Under the pieces are notes generated by a model. That model searched no databases and was not told where the DNA came from. It was given only the letters and a program-made list of their open reading frames with translations. A stretch of 35,801 bases of DNA. Source: a virus. This document shows positions 409-21,860 of this stretch, piece by piece. Both the position numbers and the translations under genes were made by a program. The stretch covers positions 1-35,801 of the IMG/VR virus record IMGVR_UViG_3300047178_000077; one strand, 5' to 3'. Every line of letters starts with the position of its first letter. Within the stretch, counting starts at the first letter, position 1.

Positions 409-498
409 TAATTCAAGCCAAACGGCACACCGCCAAGCCGTTTTGGGGGTTGCCGGGCAGTAGGGTAGCGGCCAGCAGCTAAACGGCCTGTAGGCCAG
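409..498 (-). repeat. Dispersed hairpin repeat, copy C (inverted, diverged)
   Basis: This fills the gap between the chaperone and tape measure genes. Read on the minus strand it has the same order of blocks as the copies at 10182 and 17531: CAGGCCGTTTAG, then TGGCCGCTAC, a variable C-rich spacer, then the core AAAACGGCTTGGCGGTGT (427-444). The arms at 481-490 and near 433-444 can pair with one G-U. The copy is in the opposite orientation to local transcription. The tape measure Shine-Dalgarno (AGGGGA, about 497-502) lies at its edge. Confidence 0.65.
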
Positions 499-507
499 GG
501 GATTTGC

Positions 508-7181: not shown

Positions 7182-8566
7182 TGGTCGCATTCCCGCCAAC
7201 GGCGCCACAGTCACTACAGAATACCATTTCAAGTTACGTCTACCAAGAGTATTCAGATGACGATGACATACAGGCGTTTGCGGCGGCCTATAACGGCATG
7301 GTGCAAACTTATGTTGATTGGTTCAACACAATCAACCTGCCTGTCTACACCGGAGCACAGATCAGCGGCTCTTTACTGGATTGGATAGCAACCGGACTCT
7401 ACGGGCTACCCCGTCCAGTTATTCCGGGTAGTAGCGCTCCCGCGATTGGCCTGCTGGCTACCTACTTCCTAGCACAGCTCGAGCTTGCACAATACAAGAC
7501 GTTTCCCGCGCAAACCGTCTACCCTGTGAATGACGATATCTACAAGCGCGTATTGACTTGGCTGCTCTACAAGGGTGACGGGTTTCAATTCACAACACGC
7601 TGGCTCAAGCGACGAATAATGCGTTTTCTTGTTGGGGTGGACGGTGTTGGTTACGTCGGCGGCACGCATGCGCGCGGCGGGTTGATTTTGCCGGCAAACC
7701 TTGTGGATAATCGCGCAACACAAGGCACCTACGTCAACATGGCCGGCACGTTGGGGATCGCTCCAATCAATACGCCGCGCGTTGACTGGTCGCAAGGGTC
7801 CGGGCAGTTTCTTGACGAGGTCGCCAGCACGAACTACATTACGAACCCGATGGCCATCAACGCGGTCGTCGGCACGGGCGGCTCAGGTGCGGCACTTCCA
7901 ACAGATTGGTCCTGGCCGACTACACCACCGCTGACCTGGCAACTCATACAGTCCATCACAGTCAACGGCGTAGGTTACGTCGACATTCGGCTGTACGGCA
8001 CACCGACAGCAACGCAACTTGTTCTTCAAATGGAGAACTCACTGCTATCGGTGGCGGCCGGTGAGTCCGTGACGTTCAGTGTGTATGGGGCGCTGGTCGG
8101 TGGCACGCGCGCTAACGTGGTCGGTGTCTACCCAAACCTACGCTTCACGACGTTTTCTCCGCTGGGTCCGGATCTAAGTTTATTCCCAACACCAGCACGA
8201 CTGTCCGTGCAAGACATTGCACCAAACGTAGATTCCGGTTATGGCGGAATCTTGTTTTTGTTTGGGGATACCACAACAGCCGTCGACATCACAATGCGGA
8301 TTGGTGGTGCCCAGCTGGAAGCACAGAACGAAGCTACCTCACTAATTCTACCGCCTACTGGCACGACAGCGGTATCCAATCGCGCTGCGGATATCGTGTG
8401 CTATCCCACACAGATTGACAATACATACCCCGTAAGCGTGACGTTCTCTGGACGGCAAGCGAACATCGCTATCACGGGGTTCGCGTCAATCAAGCCTTTG
8501 TTTACAGCGGCCGTGGCGTCCGGCGTGCTGCCGTTGCCCCCGCAATTCACCTACGTCGTCTCATAG
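7181..8566 (+). CDS. gpI-like baseplate/tail protein with C-terminal carbohydrate-binding-like module
   Basis: A 461-aa protein, TAATG junction with gpJ. Residues 1-150 (a long helix region, YAAYNGMVQTYVDWF-like, and LLDWIATGLYGLPRP) are wedge-like and occupy the gpI position. The rest is beta-rich with a motif of the type TNYITNPMAINAVVGTG, then WSWP, and ends in IGGAQLEAQNEATSLILPP, then SNRAADIV. This GAQxE...PT...RAAD pattern is common in phage tail proteins with a concanavalin-like, sugar-binding module. The fusion of a wedge part and an adhesin-like part is inferred from sequence style. Confidence 0.6.
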   Translation: MVAFPPTAPQSLQNTISSYVYQEYSDDDDIQAFAAAYNGMVQTYVDWFNTINLPVYTGAQISGSLLDWIATGLYGLPRPVIPGSSAPAIGLLATYFLAQLELAQYKTFPAQTVYPVNDDIYKRVLTWLLYKGDGFQFTTRWLKRRIMRFLVGVDGVGYVGGTHARGGLILPANLVDNRATQGTYVNMAGTLGIAPINTPRVDWSQGSGQFLDEVASTNYITNPMAINAVVGTGGSGAALPTDWSWPTTPPLTWQLIQSITVNGVGYVDIRLYGTPTATQLVLQMENSLLSVAAGESVTFSVYGALVGGTRANVVGVYPNLRFTTFSPLGPDLSLFPTPARLSVQDIAPNVDSGYGGILFLFGDTTTAVDITMRIGGAQLEAQNEATSLILPPTGTTAVSNRAADIVCYPTQIDNTYPVSVTFSGRQANIAITGFASIKPLFTAAVASGVLPLPPQFTYVVS

Positions 8567-8578
8567 GAGTTCCGCAGC

Positions 8579-10177
8579 ATGAGCTTGCTGATCTTCAAAA
8601 ACCTCGCAGCGTCCACGCTGGCGGGCTCCATATCAAGCTCGACAACGTCACTAGCGCTGGCCAGTGGTGGGGGCGCGTTGTTCCCCAACCCCTCAACTGG
8701 TCAGTATTTCGTGGTCTGCTTGACTGACGCTGCTACGGGGTTGCTTCTCGAGATTGTGTGGGTGACGGCGGTGTCCGGCGACACCTTCACAATCGTCCGT
8801 GCGCAGGAGGGCACAACGGCGCTGACTTGGTCCGCTGGTGATAATGTCCAGCTGTTGTGGACGATGGGTCAAGCGGCCACAATGATTCAGCGCCAGCAAC
8901 TACAGATCCAGGCTGATAACTACGTGGTGGCTTCGGGCACGGCGAATACCATTGTTCTTACGCTGCCGATTGGGCCAGGTAGCTTGTCCGCTTTGACGGG
9001 TATGCCGATTCGTTTCCAAGCCATTGCAACGAATACAGGCGCGGTGACGCTAAACGTCAACGGGTTTGGTGCTGTAAACCTCAACACACCAGCGGCTTAT
9101 TCCCTGGTCGGCGGCCAGCTTCAAAGCGGCGGTGTCTACGAGGTTATCTACAACGGCTCCACATACCAGCTTCAAACGATTCCACCGATTGGCGGAATCT
9201 ATTTTGGAACAGATACCGGCTCAACCAACAATATCGTCGTAAACATTCCAACGATGAACTACTTGGCTATCGGACAGCCTTTCTTGGTTCGCATTGTTTC
9301 TACGAATACCGGCGCGACGACTATGAATTTGAATGGCACCACGCGCGTCGTCGCCAGGGGGGGAAACGCGCTTTACCCGAATACCCTCGTCGGTGGTTTG
9401 ATTTATGAGTTCGTCTTTGACGGCTCAAACATTCAGCTTCTCTCGCAAACCGCCCTGACACAGAGTGGCACCGGCGCTGGGATGTTGGCTAACCAGACGA
9501 TGATCGGGTGGAGTGGCTCCCAGCTTCTGGCGCAAGTTGATAGCACACCGCTAGGCGCGATCGCGTTCCAGTTCACGCACGGAATGGCGATCTACAACAT
9601 TCCCGGCAGTTTCTCGGTAACAGTTCCCGCAGGCGTATCGCAGTTCAAAGTTCGCTTGTTTGGTGGCGGTGGTGGTGGTGGTGCGTCTGGTTCGAGTGGT
9701 CCCGGCGGTGGTGGTGGTGGTGGGGGCTACGTCGAGGGCTGGGCCAGTGTAACCGCTGGCGCGACTTACTCTGGTGTCGTCGGGGGTGGGGGCTCCGGGG
9801 GGTCAGGGGGCGGTAACGGCGGTAACGGCGGGACCTCCGTGTTTGGTGCGTTCAGCGCCGGGCAAGGACTCGGCGGTCTCGGAAACGGCGCAGTCTTTAC
9901 GGCCAACGGCGGGTCCGCGTCGGGCGGTGTGCTGAACGTAGCGGGGCAGAACGGTGGCCTCATCTATCAGTTTTACGGGGGCTTCTGGAGTGGCGGCCCT
10001 GGTGGGCCGCCGGGCTTCGGGTTCCCCGGCGTCGTCGGAGCCGGAAACGTCGGCACGGCCGGCAACAATGGCGCGAACTATGGCTGTGGCGGCAACGGCG
10101 CGGGAACGAACGCAGGGTTTACAACCCCCTTCAGCGGCGGTAACGGCGCGGGCGGCTTGGTCATAATCGAGTGGTAA
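8579..10177 (+). CDS. Tail fibre protein with polyglycine-rich C-terminal domain
   Basis: A 532-aa protein with a good AGGAG Shine-Dalgarno (8565-8569). The N-terminal about 105 residues (GALFPNPSTGQYFVV, then VRAQEGTTALTWSAGD) are a baseplate-attachment domain of the tail-fibre type. Two similar beta units follow (VTLNVNGFGAVNLNTPAAYS...QSGGVYEVIYNGSTYQLQ and TMNLNGTTRVVARGGNALYP...GGLIYEFVFDGSNIQLL), a probable internal duplication. The C-terminus, residues about 340-532, is a Gly-rich domain built from FTVPAGVSQFKV-like strands and polyglycine loops, like the receptor-binding tips of other phage fibres. The Gly runs are encoded by GGT/GGC repeats. Confidence 0.82.
   Translation: MSLLIFKNLAASTLAGSISSSTTSLALASGGGALFPNPSTGQYFVVCLTDAATGLLLEIVWVTAVSGDTFTIVRAQEGTTALTWSAGDNVQLLWTMGQAATMIQRQQLQIQADNYVVASGTANTIVLTLPIGPGSLSALTGMPIRFQAIATNTGAVTLNVNGFGAVNLNTPAAYSLVGGQLQSGGVYEVIYNGSTYQLQTIPPIGGIYFGTDTGSTNNIVVNIPTMNYLAIGQPFLVRIVSTNTGATTMNLNGTTRVVARGGNALYPNTLVGGLIYEFVFDGSNIQLLSQTALTQSGTGAGMLANQTMIGWSGSQLLAQVDSTPLGAIAFQFTHGMAIYNIPGSFSVTVPAGVSQFKVRLFGGGGGGGASGSSGPGGGGGGGGYVEGWASVTAGATYSGVVGGGGSGGSGGGNGGNGGTSVFGAFSAGQGLGGLGNGAVFTANGGSASGGVLNVAGQNGGLIYQFYGGFWSGGPGGPPGFGFPGVVGAGNVGTAGNNGANYGCGGNGAGTNAGFTTPFSGGNGAGGLVIIEW
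9661..9795 (+). repeat. GGT/GGC microsatellite coding for polyglycine
   Basis: Simple trinucleotide repeats at about 9663-9683 and 9706-9728 encode runs of Gly in the fibre tip, and G-rich runs continue to about 9810. Such tracts are prone to gain or loss of whole codons, which would change loop length without a frameshift. Confidence 0.6.
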
Positions 10178-10181
10178 GCGC

Positions 10182-10275
10182 GCACCGCCAGGCCGGTTTA
10201 GCCACTGGCCGCTACTACATCCCCAGCTCCACCTCTAAAACGGCCTGGCGGTGCTTGAAAAGCCGTTTTTAGCTG
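10182..10275 (+). repeat. Dispersed hairpin repeat, copy A
   Basis: It sits in the 130-base gap between two fibre genes. Arms 10182-10200 and 10236-10254 can pair over 19 bp with one mismatch; 13 bp of this (GCACCGCCAGGCC / GGCCTGGCGGTGC) is perfect. A second, competing hairpin pairs AAAACGGC (10237-10244) with GCCGTTTT (10262-10269) and is followed by a further T. The first hairpin uses the same bases as the second, so only one can form at a time. Bases 10208-10275 are almost identical to 17553-17622. Confidence 0.8.
10237..10270 (+). terminator. Possible terminator-like hairpin inside repeat copy A
   Basis: AAAACGGC / GCCGTTTTT forms an 8-bp stem ending in a T run. A plus-strand transcript from the fibre operon would meet it before the next gene. 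It competes with the longer 10182-10254 stem, so read-through could depend on which fold forms first. The loop of 17 bases is long for a simple terminator. Confidence 0.4.
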
Positions 10276-10292
10276 GTGCGTGCTACTACCAC

Positions 10293-10300
10293 AGAGGAGG
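10293..10300 (+). promoter_or_regulatory. Strong Shine-Dalgarno AGAGGAGG
   Basis: AGAGGAGG lies 7 bases before ATG 10308 and fixes that start. It is among the strongest ribosome sites in the window; most neighbouring genes rely on stop-start overlaps instead. It suggests this gene starts translation independently after the repeat. Confidence 0.8.
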
Positions 10301-10307
10301 CTAAGCC

Positions 10308-10949
10308 ATGGCAACCGGAACCGCTGGCGCAAACGCGATTCTCACGTTTGTCGCCGGCAAAACGCTTTTCTTGTCGCTCCACACGGGCGCACCGGGCTTG
10401 ACCGGAAACAACGAGCTGACCTCCGGCACAGCCCCCGGTTACGCGCGCCAATCCGCCCCGATGGGGAACGTCGCGAACAGCATGTTCAACTCGACGGCAG
10501 ACATCGTGTTCACGTCGACGTCGGGTGGTGCGTGGCCGGCTGTGAACTACTGCGCGCTGTGGGACGCTGTGACCGCCGGCAACCTGTATTTCACGACAGG
10601 TCTCGACGCGCAGGTCACGGCAGTCGCGGTCGCCTCGGGCGGAACCGGATACGTGTCAGGGGACGTCGGAAGGACCGTGACAGTTTCTGGTGGGACGGTG
10701 CAGACCGGTTTCAGCGCGGCGCAGGTGACTATTTCTACGGTCTCTGGCGGTGCTGTGACCGGAGTCGCGTTGGCGAACAGCAATCAGTACGTGATCGGTG
10801 GTGTGCCATCTTCGCCCGCTGCTACGTCAGGCGGCGGGACGACGGGTAGCGGGCTGACCGTCACGATCACGTCGTCATTCGCGTGGACTCTGTCTGCTGC
10901 GTCGACGCTGACAGTGCCCAACGGATCACTCGTGTTCATACAGAACTAG
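10308..10949 (+). CDS. Phage tail fibre/structural protein with inserted beta module
   Basis: A 213-aa protein. Residues 1-95 have the pattern of small phage fibre/decoration proteins: FLSLHTGAPGLTG, then ELTSGTAPGYARQ, then INYCALWD-like strand (AVNYCALWDAVTAGNLYF). The terminal FAWTLSAASTLTVPNGSLVF is the usual end of that family. Between them (about residues 103-188) a Gly/Ser/Thr/Val-rich beta segment (ASGGTGYVSGDVGRTVTVSGG) is inserted, of a kind repeated in many tail fibres. The gene follows the hairpin repeat, which may separate its expression from the upstream fibre. Confidence 0.65.
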   Translation: MATGTAGANAILTFVAGKTLFLSLHTGAPGLTGNNELTSGTAPGYARQSAPMGNVANSMFNSTADIVFTSTSGGAWPAVNYCALWDAVTAGNLYFTTGLDAQVTAVAVASGGTGYVSGDVGRTVTVSGGTVQTGFSAAQVTISTVSGGAVTGVALANSNQYVIGGVPSSPAATSGGGTTGSGLTVTITSSFAWTLSAASTLTVPNGSLVFIQN

Positions 10950-10962
10950 CTAGTGTGACCTC

Positions 10963-11601
10963 GTGGCCAATCTAAGCATCGGCGCGGGGAATCCAGGCGC
11001 AGCGACTCCTGGAAGCAGCGGCGTTGGAGCGGGCGTTCTACAGAAGCTGCGTATAGGTGCTGGGAATCCAGGTGCAGCGACTCCTGGAAGCAGCGGCGTT
11101 GGAGCGGGCGTTCTACAGAAGCTGCGTATAGGTGCTGGGAATCCAGGCGCTGCGCTGCCTGGAAGCAGCGGCATCGGCGCAGCAGTCGGATTAAAGCTGC
11201 GTATAGGTGCTGGGAATCCAGGTGCTGCGCTGCCTGGAAGCAGCGGCGTTGGAGCGGGCGTTCTACAGAAGCTGCGTATAGGTGCTGGGAATCCAGGCGC
11301 TGCGCTGCCTGGAAGCAGCGGCATCGACGTCGGAATACTCATCAGCTATCTCACCGGCCTGCGCGTCGGTGCTGGCAACCCGGCATCTACAGCAATAGGT
11401 GCGCGTAGTCTCGGTGCGGGCGTCGTCACCACAACGCGCGTTGGTGCTTACGGAGTGTCCGCTACTACAGGCACGGCGATCACAGTGACCCCTGCTCTGA
11501 TCACACAGACGGGTATTACACAGATCGAGATCGCGCTGGGGTTGATACCCTACACACCTTATTCGAGTTTGTCCGCAATCGACTACGATTGGAGCGCTTA
11601 A
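10963..11601 (+). CDS. Fibre-like protein made of 25-residue tandem repeats
   Basis: A 212-aa protein from GTG 10963. It has five successive copies of a 25-residue unit of the form LRIGAGNPGAATPGSSGVGA plus a short variable end (GVLQK or similar), then a degenerate sixth (LRVGAGNPASTAIGARSLGA), then a beta-rich C-terminus (TTGTAITVTPALITQTGITQ). Each unit is Gly/Pro-rich without strict G-X-Y collagen periodicity. Location among fibre genes suggests a repetitive adhesin stalk or knob. Function is unknown; a strong ribosome site is not visible. Confidence 0.65.
   Translation: MANLSIGAGNPGAATPGSSGVGAGVLQKLRIGAGNPGAATPGSSGVGAGVLQKLRIGAGNPGAALPGSSGIGAAVGLKLRIGAGNPGAALPGSSGVGAGVLQKLRIGAGNPGAALPGSSGIDVGILISYLTGLRVGAGNPASTAIGARSLGAGVVTTTRVGAYGVSATTGTAITVTPALITQTGITQIEIALGLIPYTPYSSLSAIDYDWSA
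10972..11346 (+). repeat. Five 75-bp tandem repeats within the fibre-like gene
   Basis: Repeat boundaries at 10972, 11047, 11122, 11197 and 11272. Copies share long identical runs (for example GGTGCTGGGAATCCAGG), with a few phase-keeping substitutions. Each period is 25 codons, so copy-number change keeps the reading frame. Confidence 0.85.
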
Positions 11602-11603
11602 CC

Positions 11604-11927
11604 ATGAGCTACCCCAACCAACAGAACGCGGGATCAGGTGCTATACCCGTTGAGATTTCGCCTTATTCCTACACTCCGCAAGGCTACCAGCAGATTACGT
11701 CGCTGAGCGCTGCGACGTATTTGACGCCGCCCACGGGTGCGACAGTTGCTTTTATCAGCGTGGGCGGCGCTGGTGTGCGTTACCGAGACGACGGCACGGC
11801 ACCGACTGCAACCGTGGGTGTTCCTGTTGCGTCCGGCAGCCAGCTTCAATACTCAGGTCCGCTGAGTATTGTGCAGTTCATCCAACAGGCTGCAGGAGCA
11901 ATTTTGGATATCAGCTACTACTCGTAG
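11604..11927 (+). CDS. Small tail-associated beta protein (widespread phage hypothetical)
   Basis: A 107-aa protein. Start ATG 11604 has GGAG about 9 bases upstream; a longer frame from 11589 overlaps the preceding gene and is less likely. The sequence has the pattern LTPPTGATVAFISVGGAGVRYRDDGTAPTATVGVPV-type strands, which recurs in many siphophage and myophage tail regions as a small beta-sandwich (RDDGTAPT motif, residues about 50-57). Possibly a fibre or capsid decoration protein. Only the family resemblance is visible. Confidence 0.65.
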   Translation: MSYPNQQNAGSGAIPVEISPYSYTPQGYQQITSLSAATYLTPPTGATVAFISVGGAGVRYRDDGTAPTATVGVPVASGSQLQYSGPLSIVQFIQQAAGAILDISYYS

Positions 11928-12058
11928 CGACGCACAAGGCTTTGTTACGCACAAGGCCCTGTTATTAACGCACAATTTACGCTAGGGTGTGTGTTACGTG
12001 TGTTATGCTGGGAGCAACCAGCATAGGGGCCTCTTGTGATTTCGCCGGAGATGCAGCC
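11928..12058 (+). promoter_or_regulatory. Putative regulatory region upstream of the lysis block
   Basis: A 131-base non-coding gap. It has three direct repeats of ACGCACAA (11930-11937, 11947-11954, 11968-11975), the first two extended to ACGCACAAGGC, then GTGTTACGTGTGTTA and a perfect inverted repeat TATGCTGG-GAGCAA-CCAGCATA (12004-12025). It is more AT-rich than the surrounding genes. Direct repeats plus a palindrome suggest a promoter/operator for the lysis genes. I cannot assign clear -35 and -10 boxes. Confidence 0.45.
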
Positions 12059-12445
12059 GTGTTGGATAACTGCGCTATAATGGAAGATATTCCAGACGTG
12101 CCGGAGGAGGAGGATACAGGGCCAGCACTTCGACATCTTGTGACAAGAGCTGCACGCGCGCAACGCGTTTCCGATTTTGGGCGCATGGAACTGGAAGCGG
12201 GTCTTGTTGACATCTTTGAAAGCGAATCCATCGGGCAACTGCGGGCCGACCTCCGCTGGGTGCGTGAGGTGAGGGCCAAGAAAGCCAGCGATGAAGAAAA
12301 TCGCGCAAAGGATTGGCGGGGGCGCAAGCAAGCTATATGGGTAGCCGCTGCTGCTGGAATAACTAGCGCCGTGTTGACCATCATCATAACTAAAGCACAA
12401 TGGGTCTGGTCCGTGCTGACAGGTCACGGAGGGATCACGCCGTGA
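12059..12445 (+). CDS. Single-pass membrane protein in lysis cassette
   Basis: A 128-aa protein from GTG 12059, chosen because CGGAG (12046-12050) lies 8 bases upstream; alternative starts are ATG 12080 or ATG 12005. The N-terminus is acidic (DIPDVPEEED), the middle is charged and helical (about residues 40-85), and one hydrophobic segment lies at about residues 91-115 (IWVAAAAGITSAVLTIII). Placement just before the muramidase suggests a holin or antiholin role, but the C-terminal anchor is not diagnostic. It overlaps the next gene by 4 bases. Confidence 0.55.
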   Translation: MLDNCAIMEDIPDVPEEEDTGPALRHLVTRAARAQRVSDFGRMELEAGLVDIFESESIGQLRADLRWVREVRAKKASDEENRAKDWRGRKQAIWVAAAAGITSAVLTIIITKAQWVWSVLTGHGGITP

Positions 12446-12996
12446 CCTTGCAAGAAGCCGGTTTGATCGCGCATCTCAGGTGGCGCTTGATTCTGGTCTC
12501 GGCAGTAGTGGGAGCGCTCTGCTCCACGCTTCTGTTTGATTCAACGCGCACCCCGCCAGTCAAACTCATTGATATCCGCGACGCGGACGCAGTCACGTTT
12601 CGCGGTGGCCGCTTGGAAATCTATGTCAAGAAAGAACAGCACTACACTTGCGATCGCCGTGTTGACCAGGGATTGCGCCGGTATGAGGTTCGCAACGGCA
12701 AGCGTGAACTAATCATCGTTCCCCTACAGTCGCCACCTAAGGCGCTTGTTCCTCCCGGACTCGACCACTATATCAACTCGCTAGACATTCCGGAGAACAT
12801 TGGGATCGGGACATGGGGTTACGTGCTGCGCGCAACCTGGAGCTGTCCGCTTACGCCGTGGTTCTTGCAGCCCTCACCGATCGAGACCAAGGACGTGCCG
12901 GTTGTAATAGAAGACCCTAAGACCGTGTCGTCCGCGCGTGTCGTAGTGGAACCACCTGGCCCGCTGACGATAATTCCCGTTCCCGTGAGCAAGTAG
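12442..12996 (+). CDS. Signal-anchored protein of unknown function
   Basis: A 184-aa protein from GTG 12442 with GGAGGGA just upstream. A hydrophobic N-terminal segment (WRLILVSAVVGALCSTLLF, about residues 12-30) would anchor it in the inner membrane, with the Pro-rich rest in the periplasm. The soluble part has a few Cys (YTCDRRVDQG; TWSCPLTPWF) that could form a disulfide. No domain is recognised. It overlaps both neighbours by 1-4 bases, so it belongs to the lysis operon. Confidence 0.55.
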   Translation: MTLQEAGLIAHLRWRLILVSAVVGALCSTLLFDSTRTPPVKLIDIRDADAVTFRGGRLEIYVKKEQHYTCDRRVDQGLRRYEVRNGKRELIIVPLQSPPKALVPPGLDHYINSLDIPENIGIGTWGYVLRATWSCPLTPWFLQPSPIETKDVPVVIEDPKTVSSARVVVEPPGPLTIIPVPVSK

Positions 12997-13520
12997 TGTC
13001 TTCTGTATTCGACCAGTGTTTTGCGCTGACGGTCGGAGTAGAGGGTCCGTTTGACCGCAGTTCCGGCGACTCAGGTAACTGGACAGGTGGTGCTGTCGGT
13101 GTTGGTAAACTGGTGGGCACCAAGTTTGGGATTTCCGCTGCATCATACCCAATCCTCGACATTCAAAATCTAACGCTGACGGACGCACAAACAATTTACT
13201 TGCGGGACTTCTACAACCCGATTAGCGGGGATCAGCTCCACCCCATGCTCGCCGGTTTGCTGTTTGATGCCGCTGTAAATCATGGTCGCGGCTGGTCTAT
13301 TCCAGCGTTCCAGCGTGCCGTAGGTGTTGCGGATGACGGCGTTATTGGCCCTGAGACGCTTAGTGCGGCCAGCACCAACATTCCTACGCTACATGCGGAG
13401 TTTGCCCGGCTACGTGACGAACAATACCGCTCTGACAAGCAATGGCCCACGGACGGCAAGGGTTGGATACGTCGCTTGATGTATGTGGTGGCAGCAAGTT
13501 CTCAATTCGCGTCTAACTAG
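12996..13520 (+). CDS. Endolysin, GH108-type N-acetylmuramidase
   Basis: A 174-aa protein with the catalytic N-terminal block of GH108 muramidases (FALTVGVEGPFDRSSGDSGN, Glu at about residue 16) where an E-G-x-x-D pattern precedes a D-x-G turn and KFGIS. The C-terminal half (LFDAAVNHGRG then AVGVADDGVIGPETLSA) matches the small peptidoglycan-binding domain that usually follows it. Length is typical. It would cleave peptidoglycan for lysis. There is no signal peptide, so export would need a holin. Confidence 0.82.
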   Translation: MSSVFDQCFALTVGVEGPFDRSSGDSGNWTGGAVGVGKLVGTKFGISAASYPILDIQNLTLTDAQTIYLRDFYNPISGDQLHPMLAGLLFDAAVNHGRGWSIPAFQRAVGVADDGVIGPETLSAASTNIPTLHAEFARLRDEQYRSDKQWPTDGKGWIRRLMYVVAASSQFASN

Positions 13521-13529
13521 GAACACACT

Positions 13530-13958
13530 ATGCAGCACGTTGACCTGACGCCGCTTGTGACTGTCCTACAACCGCTCATGTATGCGGCGCTGACTGCGGC
13601 AGCAAGCACACTGGTCGCGTTCGCGTTCGCGCATTGGCCGGTCTTGCAAAAGTTCGTGGATCAAACAACCGTGGATCGCGCGCTCGGTCGCGCTGGCGGC
13701 ATCGCAAACTCAGCACTAGCCGGACGCATCACCAACCTCGGCTTCGTCACACATGACCAAGCGGTGGCCGAGGGTGCGCAGTATCTGATCTCCGCCGCGC
13801 CCGACGCATTGAAGCGACTCAACATCACACCGGATCACATCGACCGCATGGTCACTGGTGAACTCGGCACGCTGCTGGACAAGAGCACTCACGCGTTGCC
13901 AGCACCTGCACCACAGACAGCGCATACCACTACGGAGACCACAACTACAACACCATGA
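13530..13958 (+). CDS. Holin-like membrane protein
   Basis: A 142-aa protein with one transmembrane segment near the N-terminus (about residues 13-36: LQPLMYAALTAAASTLVAFA), then a helical soluble region and a Thr-rich C-terminal tail (TAHTTTETTTTTP). Length and layout resemble the LLH-type phage holins. It follows the muramidase with a 9-base gap and overlaps the tiny lipoprotein gene by ATGA. It could alternatively be an inner-membrane spanin subunit, since its partner-like lipoprotein comes next. Confidence 0.6.
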   Translation: MQHVDLTPLVTVLQPLMYAALTAAASTLVAFAFAHWPVLQKFVDQTTVDRALGRAGGIANSALAGRITNLGFVTHDQAVAEGAQYLISAAPDALKRLNITPDHIDRMVTGELGTLLDKSTHALPAPAPQTAHTTTETTTTTP

Positions 13959-14089
13959 TTCGCATCGCGCTGGTCGTGCTGCTGGCCGGAGTTGTAGCCG
14001 GTTGCGCATTTCTCCGGCGCGTTGATAAATACGTGCAGACCGTCGCCGCATCGGACATGCAGCAACCTCCCTACGGAGATCAAAAATGA
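13955..14089 (+). CDS. 44-aa lipoprotein, possible o-spanin
   Basis: This short gene (MIRIALVVLLAGVVAGC...) starts at ATG 13955 within the stop of the holin-like gene and ends at TGA 14087-14089, overlapping the next start. It has a lipobox VAGC with the lipid-modified Cys at residue 17, leaving a mature peptide of about 28 residues. The size and location after muramidase/holin genes are like outer-membrane spanin Rz1 proteins. Overlaps on both sides favour a real gene. Confidence 0.6.
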   Translation: MIRIALVVLLAGVVAGCAFLRRVDKYVQTVAASDMQQPPYGDQK

Positions 14090-14571
14090 ATCGTCGTAAC
14101 CTCCTGCGCACTACTTTCCTCGCACTTCCGATGCTGGCCGTGCTGTCCGCGTGTGGCACAACCACCGTTGCGCAAATCGCCGCGCAAATCACAGCGGACG
14201 TCGATCTGGTTGCGCAGTCGCTTGACGCCCAGCTCCCGGCACTGCAAGCCGCCCTTGGCGTGAACGCCGCCGCAGTCGGTGCCGTTGCAACGGAAGTGGA
14301 GCAGATCGTTGCTGCCGCAGCGGCGTTCGCGGTCGCCACCAGTCAGGCGACAGGCGCACCGATCGTGACGCAAATCGCTTCGGACTTCAGCGCGCTGGAA
14401 ACCGCCTTGGCAGGGTTCACGCTGCCGGCGACGTTGCAGAAGATCATCACTGCCGTCAGCGTGCTACTGCCGATTATTGAAGTCGGCGTCGGCCTGCTGG
14501 CCACCCCGTCCGCCGCAGCAAACACCATGACCGCTGCCCAAGCGCGTGCGGTTTTGCTGGCAGCGCGCTGA
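14086..14571 (+). CDS. Lipoprotein of unknown function
   Basis: A 161-aa protein with a positively charged N-terminus (MNRRNLLRTTF), a hydrophobic core and a lipobox ending LSAC (Cys 23). The mature part is almost entirely helical and Ala/Val/Leu/Gln-rich (VAQSLDAQLPALQAAL; then LQKIITAVSVLLPIIEVGVG), which looks like an amphipathic or weakly membrane-bound helix bundle. It overlaps both neighbours. It may be a cell-envelope or superinfection protein, or act in lysis. Similar genes are common in alphaproteobacterial prophages by my recollection, not by search. Confidence 0.55.
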   Translation: MNRRNLLRTTFLALPMLAVLSACGTTTVAQIAAQITADVDLVAQSLDAQLPALQAALGVNAAAVGAVATEVEQIVAAAAAFAVATSQATGAPIVTQIASDFSALETALAGFTLPATLQKIITAVSVLLPIIEVGVGLLATPSAAANTMTAAQARAVLLAAR

Positions 14572-15344
14572 TGCCGGACCATTCACAGTTTAAGCTAGGT
14601 CGGAAAGACAACCGGCCCGGCTTGCCCAAGTTGCCGTTGCTGTCCGAGGTGCTGCCGAACTTGCCCACACCAGCACAAGTCGGCGGCTACGGTGTGCGCG
14701 AGACCGGCTGGGGTATGCTGGGCAACGACACGTATGGTGACTGTTATCCAGCGTTCATGATGCACAGCATCACGGCCATGACGCGTTGGAGCCAGGCCGT
14801 ACCATACGTCGCCAATACGGTGCAGACTCTGTCACTGTATTCCGCGATTACGGGTTTCAACCCGAATGAGCCAACCACGGATCAGGGCACCGAGCCAGGT
14901 ATTGCGATCGACTACTGGTTGAATACCGGCGTCGATCTCGGCAACGGCACTCACAACAAGCTGGCTGGCGCTGCCGGCATCCGTGCCGGCGCGTGGGACG
15001 ATCTTGTCGACGCCCTGGCGTGGGCTGGTGACTGCGGTATCAGTTGGAGCTTGCCGGTCTCCTGCCAATCACAAGAGGTTTGGGACGTGGTGGCCGACGA
15101 TGGCGGTGTGTGGGGCGGCCACGAGACCAAGGGGCTATTCTACAATAACGACACCGGTCTGGTTCGTTTTGTCTCGTGGGGCAAGGAACTGCTGGCCACG
15201 AAAGCGTTCGTCGAAAAATACATGGTCGGTGGTGTTGTGCCGCTGAATCATGACGCAATTCGCGGTAACGGCCTCGATCCCATGTCGATCAACTGGACTC
15301 AGCTTGCGTCTGTCGGCCAAGCCTTGCGCGCTGCAATCGGGTAG
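14571..15344 (+). CDS. Papain-like cysteine-hydrolase-fold protein in lysis/accessory block
   Basis: A 257-aa protein with no signal peptide, TGATG junction to the lipoprotein. A Cys in GNDTYGDCYPAFMMHS (Cys 58), a His in GVWGGHETKG (His 184) and a following FVSWGKE (Ser 202-Gly 204) have the order and spacing of the papain-like triad region, where GGH and an N/xSWG turn flank the active site. The DQGTEPGIAIDYW segment (about 104-116) also fits a family of phage proteins of this type. It may cut a peptide or isopeptide bond in the cell wall or process a protein. Catalysis is not proven. Confidence 0.5.
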   Translation: MPDHSQFKLGRKDNRPGLPKLPLLSEVLPNLPTPAQVGGYGVRETGWGMLGNDTYGDCYPAFMMHSITAMTRWSQAVPYVANTVQTLSLYSAITGFNPNEPTTDQGTEPGIAIDYWLNTGVDLGNGTHNKLAGAAGIRAGAWDDLVDALAWAGDCGISWSLPVSCQSQEVWDVVADDGGVWGGHETKGLFYNNDTGLVRFVSWGKELLATKAFVEKYMVGGVVPLNHDAIRGNGLDPMSINWTQLASVGQALRAAIG

Positions 15345-15355
15345 GGAATAAACCA

Positions 15356-15532
15356 ATGAGCCCCATCAGTGTAATCATTTTGATTCTTGTGCTGCTGCTG
15401 ATATTCGGCGGCGCCGGAGTCGGGTGGGGTCAATGGGGTGGTCCAGGCTTCACGCACTACGGGCGGGGTGGTGTCGGTCTCGGCGCCGTCCTGCTTGTTT
15501 TTCTTCTGCTGTGGTTCTTTGGAGTGATCTGA
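15356..15532 (+). CDS. 58-aa DUF3309-like membrane peptide
   Basis: A short gene from ATG 15356 to TGA 15530-15532, overlapping the next start by ATGA. It is two hydrophobic segments around a Gly/Trp/Tyr-rich turn (GVGWGQWGGPGF, then a second run of L/V/F). This layout resembles the DUF3309 family, which is found mainly in Alphaproteobacteria. GGAATA about 7 bases upstream of the start is a modest ribosome site. Function unknown. Confidence 0.6.
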   Translation: MSPISVIILILVLLLIFGGAGVGWGQWGGPGFTHYGRGGVGLGAVLLVFLLLWFFGVI

Positions 15533-16827
15533 TGCTTCGCATCATTCTACTTGCTGGCGTAGCCCTTACACCGCTGCTGGCGCACGCCGCTGCGCCCGCA
15601 ACCATGATCACCTCCACGGTCGCGGTCACCAAGCCCGCCACCGCTGCTGTAGTCGTCCCTGCGGCCACGGCCGCCAGCAACGCCGCCGCCATCACCGCGC
15701 TCAAGACCGACATGGACGCGCAGTTCGCCGCCGTGCTGGCGGCCATCAAGGCGCTTCCGCAGTCTGCCGTTGTCACACCGCCGCCTGCTACCTGCCCGGC
15801 GACGCCGCTTGCGACCGTGACGGTTGGTCCCGGCCAGACATTCACCGAGATGGCGTCGGCGATCCCCTGCATGGCCAAGGGATTTACCATGACGGTGCTG
15901 GCCGGCACCGCCGACCTCGTGCCGTTCGATATTCCCGTCGGACTCGACGGCTGGACCATCCTCGGCCAAGCGGACGGCAAGGAGAGCATTGACGGGCAGG
16001 GCGGCATCGCCGCCGGACACCGGCTGGCGTGGGGCAAGGGTTGCATCCACGCCCAGTCGCCAGGCCACGTCTACGGCCTCGTGCTGAAAAACTGCGGCGG
16101 CCCGGCGAGCGGCGGCGGTGGTAGCGGCGAGGCCGGCGTCTACGCGGAGAACTTCGCCGCACCCGGCACGCTGGTGCTAGACCATCTGCTGATTGAGCAC
16201 AGCGACGACGGGGTGTTCTCGCCGCCCTACTCGCCGGCGGTGTTCGGCGGCCCCGGCCAGAACGTGACGTTGGACGTCGAATCCTGCGATTTCGTGAACA
16301 ACGGCCAGAGCCTCGATGGCCTGAGCCACGACATCTACGCCACCGGCGCCGCTTTGATCGTCAACAACTCCAATTTCTACGGCAACACGTACGGAAACCA
16401 GATCAAGACCCGGACCCTGACCACCACAGTGACAGGTGGCTACAATGCCAACAATGGCGGCGGTCGCTGGATCGACGCCGCGAACGGCGGCGTGGTGACA
16501 GTGACCGGAGGCGTCTACGATGTCACCGCATCCACGCCGGGTGAGAACGTCATCGGCTTTGGCGAGGAAGGCATCGTGCCCACAACCAACAGCATGGCGT
16601 GGTCAGGGGCGCACCTATACGTCGGGCGTTTCAACTCGTCGGTCATGGTCGCAGCGAACGAAAATGTCGCGTTCGATAGCACGAACACGCTGGCCTGGAC
16701 CGGCAACGGAGCCAGCATCGGCGTAAGCGGCGGCGGCACGATGACCGGGCTGGCGACCTCGCCGGCGGCCGGCGCGGTGTTCGTGAGCGATCCGGCGCCG
16801 CCGGGGCATATCTCGGGGAATCCGTGA
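15532..16827 (+). CDS. Secreted right-handed beta-helix protein, probable cargo gene
   Basis: A 431-aa protein. ATG 15532 overlaps the upstream stop and gives a signal peptide (LLAGVALTPLLAHAA); a longer frame from 15424 runs over the upstream gene and is unlikely. The mature part has repeating turns typical of pectate-lyase-like beta helices (VYGLVLKNCGG; LVLDHLLIEHSDDGVFSP; ALIVNNSNFYGNTYGNQIK), so it may bind or cut a polysaccharide. The region is more GC-rich than the phage average (72% and 77% in two spot 60-base rows at 15961 and 16081, against 57% in a row at 8941). It ends with the tail SDPAPPGHISGNP, also found on the next gene. Confidence 0.65.
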   Translation: MLRIILLAGVALTPLLAHAAAPATMITSTVAVTKPATAAVVVPAATAASNAAAITALKTDMDAQFAAVLAAIKALPQSAVVTPPPATCPATPLATVTVGPGQTFTEMASAIPCMAKGFTMTVLAGTADLVPFDIPVGLDGWTILGQADGKESIDGQGGIAAGHRLAWGKGCIHAQSPGHVYGLVLKNCGGPASGGGGSGEAGVYAENFAAPGTLVLDHLLIEHSDDGVFSPPYSPAVFGGPGQNVTLDVESCDFVNNGQSLDGLSHDIYATGAALIVNNSNFYGNTYGNQIKTRTLTTTVTGGYNANNGGGRWIDAANGGVVTVTGGVYDVTASTPGENVIGFGEEGIVPTTNSMAWSGAHLYVGRFNSSVMVAANENVAFDSTNTLAWTGNGASIGVSGGGTMTGLATSPAAGAVFVSDPAPPGHISGNP

Positions 16828-16829
16828 TG
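16785..16829 (+). repeat. 45-base direct repeat, copy 1 (end of beta-helix gene)
   Basis: It encodes the last residues SDPAPPGHISGNP of the beta-helix gene plus its stop and the ATG of the next gene. It matches 17114-17158 with a single G/A difference. The 329-base offset is not a multiple of three, but each copy is in frame within its own gene. Confidence 0.9.
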
Positions 16830-17156
16830 ATTGGCGGCGTTGTAATCTTCGTGTCTGTTCGCGGTGAACGAACTTGCCTCTGGTGCGCCGAGCGCTTGTA
16901 TGACGGTTTCGGAAACCGTGCTGGCATCGGAGACGAGTGCGGGGTCTATGTGGATTTAGACGGGGAAATCCCGTCTGTGGGCGACGATGTGTGGTGGCAG
17001 TGCGGAAAGGTTTACTGGACGCCGGAGGACGAGCGATTCCATGACCGGCCGCTGCGCAAAATCGGTTACTCTGGATCGAGTCAGGCTATGATGAACGGCA
17101 GCGCGGCGCTGGGGAGCGATCCGGCGCCGCCGGGGCATATCTCGGGGAATCCATGA
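16824..17156 (+). CDS. Hypothetical protein, WWQ...YWTP family
   Basis: A 110-aa protein from ATG 16824, overlapping the previous stop by ATGA. It has a possible metal-site pattern (CLWCAERL; a later DECG) and the WWQCGKVYWTPEDERFHDRP block (about residues 57-76) seen in many small phage proteins of unknown role. The last 13 residues (SDPAPPGHISGNP) are identical to those of the unrelated beta-helix protein upstream, so they probably come from the repeat rather than the original gene. It may be a moron. No function can be given. Confidence 0.5.
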   Translation: MMIGGVVIFVSVRGERTCLWCAERLYDGFGNRAGIGDECGVYVDLDGEIPSVGDDVWWQCGKVYWTPEDERFHDRPLRKIGYSGSSQAMMNGSAALGSDPAPPGHISGNP

Positions 17157-17158
17157 TG
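17114..17158 (+). repeat. 45-base direct repeat, copy 2 (end of the WWQ gene)
   Basis: Same sequence as 16785-16829 apart from one base (CCATGATG instead of CCGTGATG). The stop codon of the WWQ gene and the ATG of the following gene lie inside it. The two copies exactly bracket the WWQ gene, as expected if it was inserted or lost by recombination between them. Confidence 0.9.
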
Positions 17159-17482
17159 GCAACCGAAGTTCTGAGTTCTAAGCTCGTTCTTCGGCATTAC
17201 GGGCCGCTTCGTTCTCTGCATGAACACTGGTGCCCTGGATGCGAGAACACGCATCAAATCGCTGTCAAGCAGCCGTTCAAGAACGGAGCACAGTGGACGT
17301 TTGACGGCAATGCTCAGGCTCCGACATTCGCGCCGTCTGTGAATGTTGCCGCAAATTTTCCAAAGCTCCGGTGTCACTACTTTATTCGCGCTGGAAAGAT
17401 CGAGTTTTGCGGCGATTGCCATCACGATCTGCGCGGGAAAACGGTGGAGCTACCAGACATTCCGCCGGACTGGCTTGAATAG
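17153..17482 (+). CDS. DUF6527-like zinc-binding protein
   Basis: A 109-aa protein with the usual pattern of this phage family: WCPGCENTHQI (CxxC), a WTFDGNAQAPTFAPSVNV beta block, RCHYFIRAGKIEF, then CGDCHHDLRGKTVELPDIP. Four Cys (CxxC and CxxC) plus His could bind zinc. The start could be ATG 17153 or 17156. In many phages this gene sits near lysis or accessory genes; its role is unknown. It is the last plus-strand gene before the convergence point. Confidence 0.65.
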   Translation: MMATEVLSSKLVLRHYGPLRSLHEHWCPGCENTHQIAVKQPFKNGAQWTFDGNAQAPTFAPSVNVAANFPKLRCHYFIRAGKIEFCGDCHHDLRGKTVELPDIPPDWLE

Positions 17483-17530
17483 TCTTGCCAACCATAATCG
17501 TCGGCGGATTTTTTCGCGCTCCCACGGAGG

Positions 17531-17622
17531 CCGCCAGGCCAGTTTGGCCGCTGGCCGCTACTATACCCCCAGCTCCACCTCTAAAACGGCCTGGCGGTGC
17601 TTGAAAAGCCGTTTTTAGCTGC
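17531..17622 (+). repeat. Dispersed hairpin repeat, copy B, at the convergence of both operons
   Basis: Arms CCGCCAGGCC (17531-17540) and GGCCTGGCGG (17588-17597) can pair perfectly. The second, exclusive hairpin is AAAACGGC (17583-17590) with GCCGTTTT (17608-17615) and a trailing T. From 17553 it is nearly identical to copy A. It lies between the plus-strand gene ending at 17482 and the minus-strand gene ending at 17615, so it may end transcripts from both sides. It overlaps the MarR-like stop codon. Confidence 0.8.
17583..17616. terminator. Likely bidirectional terminator in repeat copy B
   Basis: AAAACGGC...GCCGTTTTT has a T run at the plus-strand end and an A run at the other, so it reads as a terminator on either strand. 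It sits exactly where the convergent operons meet. The 17-base loop and the competing longer stem are unusual. Confidence 0.5.
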
Positions 17623-17929
17623 CGGGTAACAGCCCCATGCCAGCGAGGTAGGCGAACCCGGCCGTGGTCAGCTCAACCAGCGTGCCGTGAGCGGACCCGT
17701 CAGAGGGGTGTCCCATGACGCGACGCAGCCAGCCGGTAGCAACCAGCTTGTCGACCGCCCGGCTGATCACGCTTGGGTTGATGTCCATCACAGCGGCTAG
17801 ATGGACGGGTGCTTGCGGCCCCTGCTCGGCGCAAGCAACCACGATGTAGAGCTGCCGCACGGTGAGTCGCGCGCTGGCGTTGTCGCCGTAGCGCACGACT
17901 CGGAGCAGCGTCTCAGCTAGGTCACTCAT
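17615..17929 (-). CDS. MarR-like winged-helix regulator
   Basis: A 104-aa protein with a helix-turn-helix of the MarR type: LTVRQLYIVVACAEQGPQAP, then HLAAVMDINPSVISRAVDKL (recognition helix, about residues 40-60), then LVATGWLRRV and a beta-wing region (HGTLVELTTAGFAYL). It is short and lacks the long dimer helices of full MarR proteins. It overlaps the 75-aa gene by 8 bases and is last in the minus operon. It could control late genes or its own operon. No ligand site can be seen. Confidence 0.7.
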   Translation of the reverse strand: MSDLAETLLRVVRYGDNASARLTVRQLYIVVACAEQGPQAPVHLAAVMDINPSVISRAVDKLVATGWLRRVMGHPSDGSAHGTLVELTTAGFAYLAGMGLLPGS

Positions 17930-18149
17930 TTAGTGATTTGTCCTCAAAAATCTGCTTGGACTGCTGGTATGCGACCAGCGCGATCAAGCGCCCGCGCCAC
18001 GTCTCACCGCGATGCAACCGGGCCTTGCTGCCCGTGCTAAACGCGGTCTTGTATTCTGTGTCCGCCGCTTGCACGGCGTCCAACTCCACGAGAATCTGCT
18101 CGAAACGGGTCAGGTTTTTCGAGAGGTCTAAGGCGTTCCGAAGAACCAT
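17922..18149 (-). CDS. 75-aa helical hypothetical protein
   Basis: ATG 18149 follows AGGAGACGGG with good spacing, so I choose it over a start 10 codons upstream (18179). The protein is helical (MVLRNALDLSKNLTRFEQIL) with a basic middle and no known motif. It overlaps the MarR-like gene. A promoter-like element lies just upstream, so this pair may be expressed separately from the long operon. Confidence 0.6.
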   Translation of the reverse strand: MVLRNALDLSKNLTRFEQILVELDAVQAADTEYKTAFSTGSKARLHRGETWRGRLIALVAYQQSKQIFEDKSLNE

Positions 18150-18194
18150 GTCCCGTCTCCTGCTGTCCGACCGGACCACCCGGCCACAACCCCA

Positions 18195-18223
18195 TATATA
18201 GGGGCCAGCTTGCGAAAGAGCAA
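18195..18223 (-). promoter_or_regulatory. Putative sigma70-like promoter for the 75-aa/MarR pair
   Basis: Read on the minus strand, TTGCTC (18223-18218), a 17-base spacer and TATATA (18200-18195) give a -35/-10 arrangement. The -35 box matches consensus at 3 of 6 positions, the -10 box at 4 of 6. It lies 46 bases before the ATG at 18149. A hairpin GCTTGC-GAAAGA-GCAAGC (18208-18225) overlaps the -35 box. Confidence 0.35.
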
Positions 18224-18225
18224 GC
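18208..18225. other. Hairpin between SNF2-like helicase and 75-aa gene
   Basis: A perfect 6-bp stem (GCTTGC/GCAAGC) with a 6-base loop in the short gap 18150-18233. It has no T run, so it is not a standard terminator. It could protect the 3' end of the helicase message or be an operator for the MarR-like protein. Confidence 0.4.
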
Positions 18226-18233
18226 CATAAAAT

Positions 18234-19790
18234 TCAAGCCCGCAAAGATTTCCAAGTGGCCTTCCCGTGGATCAAGGTGCGCAAGATGTCCTTGCCTTCT
18301 GATATGAAATCCAGGACACGCTTATCCACTGGCGACGACACTAGGTCATCCATAATCAGGACGCGCTGGCCCCGCTCACCCAGCGGCCGCGCCTCGGCTT
18401 GCTGGCGGACAATGGGACTGGTCGGGGATTCAAAAAACAGCAAGTAGTCGGCCCGGTTGAGGTCGATGGCTGTCCCACCCGTAGCGGTGTTGGCCACTAG
18501 CACTTGCGCGTTCCCGTCTACAAACGCACGCCTGGCAGCGCCCTTATCGCGCGCTTGACCATAAAGCCAGCTATGCTTGATTTTTAGCTCTGTCAGCAGT
18601 TTGCAGATCAACAGGCCGGTGTGCGTGTATTCGTGGAAAATCACAGTAGGCACGTCACCCAGCTCCATCAGTAGATCACGCAGCCAATCCAGCTTACTCG
18701 GATGCGGGAAATGCAACACATGCTCGCTTAGCTCGTCGTCCGTGTAAGGCAAATACCCGCTGCTGATCATGCGTAAGCGCGAGAATGTAGACCCGACTTC
18801 CACGGGGTCCAAGTCGTCGGGGCGTGTAATCACACCGCTGATCACGTCATTGTAGGCGTTCCTTTGCTCCGGTGACATGCGCAGTTCCACGCGATTGTCC
18901 AGCACGGATACTTGCGTCACTTCGGCCCGCGCGTAGGCCATCGATATGGATTCGATGCGCGTCTGAAGGATGGGTTTTAGTGACTCGTCGAACGCCAGGG
19001 ATTCTTTTGTCGGGCTAAACCAGTTCTTTACTTTCTTGCTGAAGGCCGTGCGGAAGAACTGCGGACTGGTGCCAAGGCAATCACCGTCGTCAATCAAGTA
19101 AGCCTGCGCCCATACGTCCAGCGGGAACCGGCCGAACGGTGTGCCGGTCAAACCAATGCGGAATGTGCATTTCCGCACCAGCTCAGCGGCCATTGCAAAC
19201 CAAAGCCCCTGTTCGTTCTTGCAGCGGTGGATTTCGTCAATGATGCAGAGCGACCAGCAGCCGGCCACCTGGCGTAGCTTAGCGCGATCCGGGTAAAGTT
19301 TAGGCTGACCTTTGCGCGACTTCTTTTTGATTGTAAACATGGCCTGTAGCACGGACCACGTCACAACAATTAAGTCTACGTTCTCGCTAATCGCTTGCTC
19401 GAGCTGCGCCAGGTTGCGCACGGCCCGGACGTTGAGTGCGCTGTGCTTACTAGCCTCGAACTCCCAAACGTCCAGCGCGACAGGTGCGTGCGCAATTACT
19501 AGCCCCGCGTCCGACCACAGACCCGCGTGTCGTAAGTGTGTCGCCCAATCCAGCGCCATTTTGGTTTTGCCGAGACGCGTGTCGTAGAATAACAGACAGC
19601 GCATCATGTGCAGCGCGAACGCTAACCCCTCGAGCTGGTGCTGGCGCAATGGCGTGCGCGTGTTTAGCTCAACACCAGTGTCTTGCGCAATATGACGACG
19701 CAGCGCGTGGTAATTCTCGCCTTTGAAGTCTGGCCGCTTAGTGGGAACGTAAGCCAGGTATCGCTGTATGGCCTCGGGGTCGATAGGCAT
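18234..19790 (-). CDS. SNF2-type DNA helicase/translocase 1
   Basis: A 518-aa superfamily 2 ATPase. The Walker A motif is FYDTRLGKTK (about residues 68-77). DEIH (in LCIIDEIHRCKN) is motif II, and LTGTPFGRFP is motif III. The C-terminal RecA domain has VLVANTATGGTAIDL (motif V) and QAEARPLGERGQ (a variant of the SNF2 motif VI). It would translocate on double-stranded DNA, perhaps removing proteins or remodelling forks. It starts one base after the DnaB-like stop with no clear ribosome site, suggesting coupling. A second, distinct SNF2-type gene lies upstream in the same operon. Confidence 0.82.
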   Translation of the reverse strand: MPIDPEAIQRYLAYVPTKRPDFKGENYHALRRHIAQDTGVELNTRTPLRQHQLEGLAFALHMMRCLLFYDTRLGKTKMALDWATHLRHAGLWSDAGLVIAHAPVALDVWEFEASKHSALNVRAVRNLAQLEQAISENVDLIVVTWSVLQAMFTIKKKSRKGQPKLYPDRAKLRQVAGCWSLCIIDEIHRCKNEQGLWFAMAAELVRKCTFRIGLTGTPFGRFPLDVWAQAYLIDDGDCLGTSPQFFRTAFSKKVKNWFSPTKESLAFDESLKPILQTRIESISMAYARAEVTQVSVLDNRVELRMSPEQRNAYNDVISGVITRPDDLDPVEVGSTFSRLRMISSGYLPYTDDELSEHVLHFPHPSKLDWLRDLLMELGDVPTVIFHEYTHTGLLICKLLTELKIKHSWLYGQARDKGAARRAFVDGNAQVLVANTATGGTAIDLNRADYLLFFESPTSPIVRQQAEARPLGERGQRVLIMDDLVSSPVDKRVLDFISEGKDILRTLIHGKATWKSLRA

Positions 19791-19791
19791 G

Positions 19792-21180: not shown

Positions 21181-21860
21181 GGGAGGCCCGCAATCTTGTG
21201 CAGCTGAAGTGACAGCCTATAGCCGTGGACCATCGAACTTGTGACGGCGGCCTGCAAGTTAGCTGCGTTGGCTGTTGGGTCGTCCTCGTCGCAGGGCTGC
21301 ACGTAGATCACGGAGTATTTTCGCTCCGATCGAAATATACGCGCGGCCTGCCCAACAATTTGCGTTGATTTGTTGGGCAGGCCGTCGTCACCAAGTTCGC
21401 CAGCGCGAATGATGTATTTCCAAAATACTACGCGCTCCTCGATACGCGGATGCACAGCCGGGGTCTTTGGCGAGCACACAATCACAGGTGCTTTGTCGTA
21501 AGGAACGTCTTCCATACCCTCCGGCCAGACGGTGCCGGCGGTTTCGATTTGGAAGATGGCTTGCGTGTTTGCCATAAGCAACTCGGGCAGGGCTTGCAGC
21601 ATGGGCTCACCGCCCGTCAGCACCACGCGCTTCGCTTGACTGGCGCAGATGGTGGCGACAAGCTCTTGCAGGCTTAGAATGACTGTTGTATCGAAATTCG
21701 TATCGCAAAAGTAGCAACGCAGATTGCACTCAGCAAACCGCACGAACAGCGCCGGCCATCCGGCCCACGGCCCTTCTCCTTGTATGGTTTTGAATATGGA
21801 GTGTATCGCGTAGCCCTGCTCGAGCTTGCGCCGACCTACTATTAGGTTCTTGCCGTGCAT
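21177..21860 (-). CDS. queE: QueE, 7-carboxy-7-deazaguanine synthase
   Basis: A 227-aa radical SAM enzyme. CNLRCYFC (Cys 45, 49, 52) is the CxxxCxxC cluster motif; FKTIQGEGPWAGWPALFVRF at the N-terminus and LTGGEPMLQ (the GGE motif) are typical of QueE. It converts 6-carboxytetrahydropterin to 7-carboxy-7-deazaguanine in the queuosine/7-deazaguanine pathway. It follows queD directly, the next step of the pathway. A perfect AGGAGG ribosome site overlaps the queD stop. In phages such genes support DNA base modification or host tRNA modification. Confidence 0.9.
   Translation of the reverse strand: MHGKNLIVGRRKLEQGYAIHSIFKTIQGEGPWAGWPALFVRFAECNLRCYFCDTNFDTTVILSLQELVATICASQAKRVVLTGGEPMLQALPELLMANTQAIFQIETAGTVWPEGMEDVPYDKAPVIVCSPKTPAVHPRIEERVVFWKYIIRAGELGDDGLPNKSTQIVGQAARIFRSERKYSVIYVQPCDEDDPTANAANLQAAVTSSMVHGYRLSLQLHKIAGLP

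Follow-up and report, generated by a model that had tools for sequence, protein, structure and literature searches.

What is the non-coding sequence of about 95 bases that recurs, nearly always between genes, in the genome of one phage, and what might it do at these sites? The window, which is the whole stretch of DNA analyzed here, is an IMG/VR virus record of 35,801 bases from an uncultured virus of bacteria. It carries tail and fibre-like genes on the plus strand and UvsX-like, SSB-like and DNA-polymerase-like genes on the minus strand. Other records continue the same phage, with overlaps that are 99.8-100% identical. On the left, G001 adds about 27 kb and G004 another 4 kb or so beyond it; on the right, G002 adds about 7 kb, which brings the phage sequence to about 75 kb in all. 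This sequence holds seven to eight copies of the repeat, spread across the tail and replication regions without clustering. Copies C, F, G and H were recovered by BLAST and profile searches of the phage contigs. To avoid circularity, every copy was scored with a profile built without that copy (leave-one-out), and D was placed in no model. The copies are as follows.

10182 to 10277, plus strand: copy A, 95% identical to B over 91 nt; leave-one-out E 7.5e-27, best stretch 10185-10284; tail-fibre-like gene (8579-10177) before it and the next plus-strand gene (10308-10949) after it.
17528 to 17624, plus strand: copy B; leave-one-out E 3.7e-28 (17529-17622); between convergent genes, 17153-17482 (plus) and a MarR-like gene, MarR by Pfam, 17615-17929 (minus).
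400 to 498, minus strand (inverted): copy C; leave-one-out E 7e-13 (492-400); in a 105-nt gap between the plus-strand genes 100-402 and 508-2517.
35204 to 35301, minus strand: copy E, weak; leave-one-out E 0.0011, 14.1 bits.
29404 to 29447, plus strand: D, partial and doubtful; leave-one-out E 0.00032, 16.0 bits.
4235 to 4335 of left1b (reverse of L117), outside the window: copy F; leave-one-out E 6.3e-22.
16837 to 16930 of left1b, outside the window: copy G; leave-one-out E 7.8e-05.
About 9202 to 9304 of L121, outside the window: copy H; leave-one-out E 2e-20.

The repeat family is real, and copies A, B and C are unquestionable. Copies F and H are certain and G is probable; E is weak, and D is both weak and doubtful. 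The preliminary description had counted five dispersed copies in the window. Three of these, A, B and C, hold firmly with leave-one-out E values of 7e-13 or better, whereas the significance of E is confined to its 3' half (35249-35204 in the leave-one-out profile) and D is in doubt. The homology of the inverted copy C to A and B spans 400-492. Across the eight leave-one-out runs, the best match outside the copies ranged from E 0.0032 (the run without G) to 0.05. Chance matches, which the preliminary description had proposed to control for by shuffling, did not reproduce the scores of C, G, D and E in any of 40 dinucleotide-shuffled versions of the phage searched at full sensitivity, a control that covered these four copies. 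The margin was small for E, where the best shuffled score was 12.3 bits against 14.1 observed; with the D model it was 9.6 bits against 16.0. The same control with default filters gave 0/100 versions reaching the observed value. Bacterial loci preselected for the exact 17-mer core of the element scored 14.4-20.8 bits among the 25 matches listed, so the score of copy E represents little more than that core. D lies antisense within an open ORF of 125 codons (29324-29701, minus strand), the GTG of which overlaps the stop codon of the SSB-like gene, and for this reason D may be coding sequence. We discarded a further candidate, 'copy I' (left1a 9642-9672), which falls within an ORF and gave E 0.009 with the full profile and 0.023-0.22 in the leave-one-out runs.

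We analyzed the anatomy of the element in an alignment (A2) of seven copies (A, B, C, E, F, G and H), with D left out. Read from 5' to 3', a GC-rich arm that varies between copies leads into block 1 (TGGCCGCTAC); about 25 nt of C-rich spacer separate this block from the core AAAACGGCCTGGCGGTG, which is followed by either of two tails. The tail CTTGAAAAGCCGTTTTTAGCTG is present in copies A, B and H and, in a diverged form, in G; C and F carry the tail TGCCGTTTGGCTTGAATTAG, of which E has a diverged version. All seven aligned copies have the same loop, TGGCGGTG. Inverted-repeat ends occur in copy A and partly in B and F only, and conserved terminal inverted repeats were absent from C, E, G and H in this alignment. 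The cores and short hairpins located in the window are given below.

10237 to 10253, plus strand: core AAAACGGCCTGGCGGTG of copy A.
17583 to 17599, plus strand: core of copy B.
428 to 444, minus strand: core of copy C, with one mismatch.
35232 to 35248, minus strand: core of copy E, exact.
10237 to 10270, plus strand: short hairpin of copy A (AAAACGGC...GCCGTTTTT).
17583 to 17616, plus strand: short hairpin of copy B, identical to that of A.

The copies sit at the ends of genes. Five of them (A, B, C, F and G) either overlap a stop codon or lie no more than about 11 nt from one. Copy A starts 4-7 nt past the stop of the fibre-like gene and lies 30 nt ahead of the next gene, and copy F starts 1 nt past the stop of a small HTH gene, the product of which gave only transposase-HTH matches below the curated Pfam cut-offs. 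Copy G lies at the end of a capsid-like gene, with its leave-one-out boundary 11 nt in; the capsid-like label derives from a Pfam match (PF09950, E 1e-4) that is below the curated cut-off, plus gene order. Copies B and C reach into the stop codons of neighbouring genes with their 3' ends. Copy B separates two convergent genes, with the MarR-family gene ending at B and no downstream gene on its own strand, and copy E occupies the interval from the end of a minus-strand ORF (35304) to an ATG at 35204. For copy H, a search upstream identified no gene end. Copies A, B, E, F and G point the same way as their upstream gene, and C and D point the opposite way.

We looked for the element in other sequences. 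The preliminary description could name no known family for it, and this agrees with our searches, in which the whole window gave zero Rfam matches at the gathering score and copy A found no match in annotated phages. Copy B had no match among plasmids. In IMG/VR the matches were confined to contigs of this phage, besides two gapped viral pattern matches (L124 and L127) that scored 9.6 bits with E 0.2 and were judged to be chance. The GTDB genomes gave no match to the two-block pattern. The exact 17-mer occurred in at least 119 scattered stretches of these genomes, of which 80 loci were retrieved; the best profile match among the 17-mer loci listed was L214 at 20.8 bits, and the 25 matches listed take in the core with no more than a portion of the spacer. 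A host-derived repeat was rejected on these two grounds, the missing two-block match in GTDB and the restriction of the listed bacterial matches to the core with or without part of the spacer. Among the open-licence papers listed by literature searches, no report was recognised as describing the element. As far as searched, the element appears to be private to one phage.

Distant relatives of the phage allowed us to ask how individual copies arose. A scan with the protein encoded at 5745-7181 produced 80 loci; 78 belong to other phages, at 41-59% identity, and the element was absent from these 78 (best E 4.6 in 1.05 Mb). It was also absent from the 78 relatives' loci found with the capsid-like protein (best E 3.1), and thus from all 156 distant-relative loci searched. 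The junction that holds copy C in the window, a gap of 105 nt, was compared in 35 relatives; the two genes lie within -11 to +6 nt of each other in 33 of them, and the exceptions have gaps of 60 and 164 nt. Three loci with both genes were left out of this count, since the second protein's N-terminus did not lie close by. Clustering at 90% identity reduced the 35 relatives to 26 clusters, 24 of which are closed. With the junction closed in 33/35 relatives, copy C is a derived gain in this phage lineage, its exact edges being hidden by the distance of the relatives.

The gap behind the capsid-like gene, where copy G is located, measures 20 to 1020 nt in relatives (67/78 loci measured). Against mononucleotide shuffles, the next 80 nt behind this gene reach a folding z of -2 or lower in 31 of 75 relative loci (median -1.67), with the other 44 falling short, and our phage gives -2.7. 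The position of copy G is thus consistent with a site where many relatives carry a stem-loop. A search for dispersed families in the relatives' gaps gave one repeated pair each in 5 of 45 loci longer than 12 kb and no multi-copy family. Recombinase and polymerase scans for the neighbours of D and E returned this phage only, and for copy A no conserved neighbour was found through which relatives could be compared.

That the cassette duplicates and moves within the lineage follows from the gained copy C, the existence of two tail subfamilies and the changes of orientation. Its placement at gene ends and between convergent genes, combined with a palindrome bordered by an A-tract and a T-tract, suggests that a two-way terminator-like role is its most likely function. 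We tentatively favor, with less than even confidence, the proposal that the element is a phage-private, duplicating cassette of about 95 bp that is retained at gene ends, where it would mark the end of transcripts in both directions. We infer termination, a contribution of Rho and a route of spreading as follows. The palindrome AAAACGGC...GCCGTTTT, with the A-tract on one side and the T-tract on the other, would form a modest terminator hairpin in either direction, and the C-rich, G-poor stretch ahead of the palindrome may aid Rho loading in the sense direction. Copies would spread into gene junctions through duplication or ectopic recombination, and the spread copies would create new transcript boundaries.

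Five of the seven copies (A, B, C, F and H) keep the short A-tract/T-tract hairpin intact; G has part of it, and E has lost it. It folds at about -9 kcal/mol as the minimum free energy structure in A/B/H and C/F; the 8-bp stem alone has -7.5 kcal/mol, which is weak, and the T-tract forms part of the stem. Over the seven copies, 90.4% of the cells of the short stem AAAACGGC/GCCGTTTT pair, with one double change, and 158 of 500 column shuffles equaled this value because the columns hardly vary. The terminator suggested in the preliminary description is compatible with the stop-codon placement and with the short hairpin, but a consensus terminator scan of A-E (loops up to 8) flagged only C, and weakly, and terminator-like sites in positions 1-20000 were not enriched (17 observed, 19.5 in shuffles). 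The weak stem, the T-tract within it, the loss of the hairpin in E, the scan result and the shuffle-reachable pairing count against a terminator. The invariant loop TGGCGGTG, for which a plain terminator has no need, also counts against one, as does the inversion of C relative to its neighbours, so that the C-rich strand of C is not transcribed with them. The folding behind the capsid-like gene weighs on both sides, with the 31 relative loci at z -2 or lower in favor of a terminator and the 44 that fall short against it. Given the weak hairpin, the scan result and the conserved loop, selfish-repeat and binding-site readings have to be weighed.

The leading rival, which we nevertheless consider unlikely, is a selfish mini-element of the REP or MITE type that has no part in regulation and owes its spread to being copied, either by a transposase or through recombination at the ends of genes. 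The preliminary description had offered a small mobile element among its options, and copy C as a gained insertion in a normally closed junction fits it, as do the occurrence of both orientations, the two tail subfamilies, the variable 5' arms and the inverted-repeat ends of A and, partly, B and F. Such an element would be expected less readily from the few copies, the missing conserved terminal inverted repeats in C, E, G and H, the preference for stop codons over arbitrary intergenic sites, and an HTH protein before F with sub-threshold transposase matches only. A combination of both ideas, in which a selfish or semi-selfish non-coding element of one phage lineage copies itself into stop-codon junctions and thereby inserts two-way transcript boundaries, is in our estimation improbable. 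If true, this element would be the phage-genome counterpart of bacterial REPs, rewiring operons as it spreads.

We regard as somewhat more improbable the proposal that the repeat is bound, as DNA or RNA, by a phage protein such as the MarR-like protein by B or the HTH protein before F, and that it acts as a dispersed operator or a stoperator-like road block. Block 1 and the core are conserved as sequence and make an imperfect inverted repeat, the loop contains the invariant TGGCGGTG, and the genes that end at B and F encode a MarR-family protein, which is a possible lead, and an HTH protein, respectively. The HTH matches are below the Pfam cut-offs, however, the element is far longer than a usual operator, and recent duplication is another explanation for the conservation.

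The preliminary description had highlighted two mutually exclusive hairpins, from which an attenuator or riboswitch-like RNA might be proposed. Both hairpins can be drawn in A and B. The long stem, the 5' arm paired with the core, also occurs in B and F but is strong in A; there it has 18/19 pairs, and AAAACGGC is common to the long and short stems, so the core of A can pair either with the 5' arm or with the 3' GCCGTTTT. Folding-energy z values against dinucleotide shuffles were -3.6 for A, -1.4 for B, 0.1 for C, -1.6 for F, -1.6 for G, 0.3 for H and 0.0 for E, that is, clearly better than shuffles in copy A only. As a family trait, the pair of hairpins did not hold. The 5' arm is variable and the long stem is broken in several copies; over the seven copies 70.4% of its cells pair, with one double change, and 302 of 500 column shuffles do as well. 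The consensus fold favored a third pairing, block 1 with the core, with 11 pairs and no double changes, and copy B has no downstream gene on its strand to attenuate. Since the long stem fails against shuffles, covariation is minimal and only A folds clearly better, the family is held by sequence rather than by covarying structure, as judged from seven sequences only. We rejected the attenuator as a family trait, its pairing not being conserved by covariation in the seven copies, and consider this reading very unlikely. The repeated intergenic position and the 30 nt between A and the next gene might suggest a dispersed promoter, used by the RNA polymerase of the host or the phage; this was rejected as the least probable reading of all, since A-E contain no sigma-70-like site, B runs into a convergent gene with none downstream on its own strand, and C points away from the gene behind it.

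The element resembles several known systems in part. REP/BIME elements of bacteria (PMC2817692) are likewise extragenic, palindromic, found in both orientations and placed at gene ends, but they have more than 100 copies per bacterial genome against seven to eight in this phage. The present element also differs in having no matched transposase (one HTH protein checked) and in not being found in the bacterial genomes scanned, where the two-block search was empty and 17-mer core matches were listed. The stoperators of cluster A mycobacteriophages (PMC9283540) are similar as sites across a phage genome that possibly stop transcription; they are repressor-binding sites, whereas here the element has two blocks and about 95 bp. 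Bidirectional intrinsic terminators share the A-tract, GC stem and T-tract, a layout that would be usable in both directions, and the position at gene ends, but here the GC core has only 4 bp, the loop is long and conserved, the T-tract lies within the stem and there is a conserved upstream block.

In our best reading, the functionally nearest known kind may be the PeSL cassettes of T4, which are reportedly due to Arbiol et al. 2010 and Comeau et al. 2014. PeSLs are the promoter early stem-loops of T4-type phages (PMC4503421, PMC3950731). Both are repeated, intergenic, regulatory-looking stem-loop cassettes with several copies at gene boundaries, and the present element is, D excepted, likewise repeated at intergenic sites in one phage genome. 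In PeSLs a promoter is joined to the stem-loop, whereas A-E here contain no sigma-70-like site, and the sequences are seemingly unrelated with the tools used, the present element being known from one phage only. Phage genes are tightly packed, and the relatives keep the C junction closed, yet in one lineage it has been opened and now holds a copy of a regulatory-looking cassette. Should the cassette end transcripts, a small duplicating element would have rewired operons in nature. Such a case would be comparable to the PeSLs of T4-type phages, although it comes from a phage group unrelated to them and the cassette apparently lacks a promoter.

Some genes in the window contain internal repeats or share sequence at their ends. 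An open gene of unknown function carries a 75-bp unit in head-to-tail repeats (window 10963-11601), which is 80-83% identical in four staggered 150-nt matches. The ends of two adjacent genes (window 16772-16829 and 17101-17158) have 58 nt in common at 91%, and each copy terminates in DPAPPGHISGNP; this likeness is a local duplication. On L121, a contig of the same phage that carries copy H of the intergenic repeat, the hairpin CTTGCGGAAACGCAAG occurs twice, on either side of copy H (about 1396 and 1652 of the segment ‘left2’). Copy H is adjoined by leucine-rich-repeat-like genes (L120-L123; left2 1-1337) with many near-identical repeats (82-90%).

The radical-SAM, GTP cyclohydrolase I and QueC genes of the window and of locus L118 suggest a deazaguanine pathway, possibly with a role in DNA modification:
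Window 21177-21860, minus strand: radical-SAM gene (Pfam, below the cut-off), which we take to be QueE
L118 5198-5821: GTP cyclohydrolase I gene
L118 2781-3611: QueC gene
L118 5772-6842: candidate DpdA-like gene, without a Pfam match

A conserved, putative three-way-junction RNA of about 62 nt was present in 21 of the 156 loci of distant relatives, downstream of the capsid-like gene at a distance of 14 to about 875 nt:
L174 1183-1244: putative RNA
L168 4031-4092: putative RNA
L157 4034-4095: putative RNA
18 further relative loci: putative RNA

RNAalifold, run on 14 of the 21 sequences after seven near-identical or truncated rows were left out, gave a consensus of 17 pairs, two of them with changes on both sides (one such pair in 6 sequences). 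The eight loci searched against Rfam gave no match at the element and nothing was evident from a literature search; the putative RNA behind the capsid-like gene looks like an undescribed RNA family.
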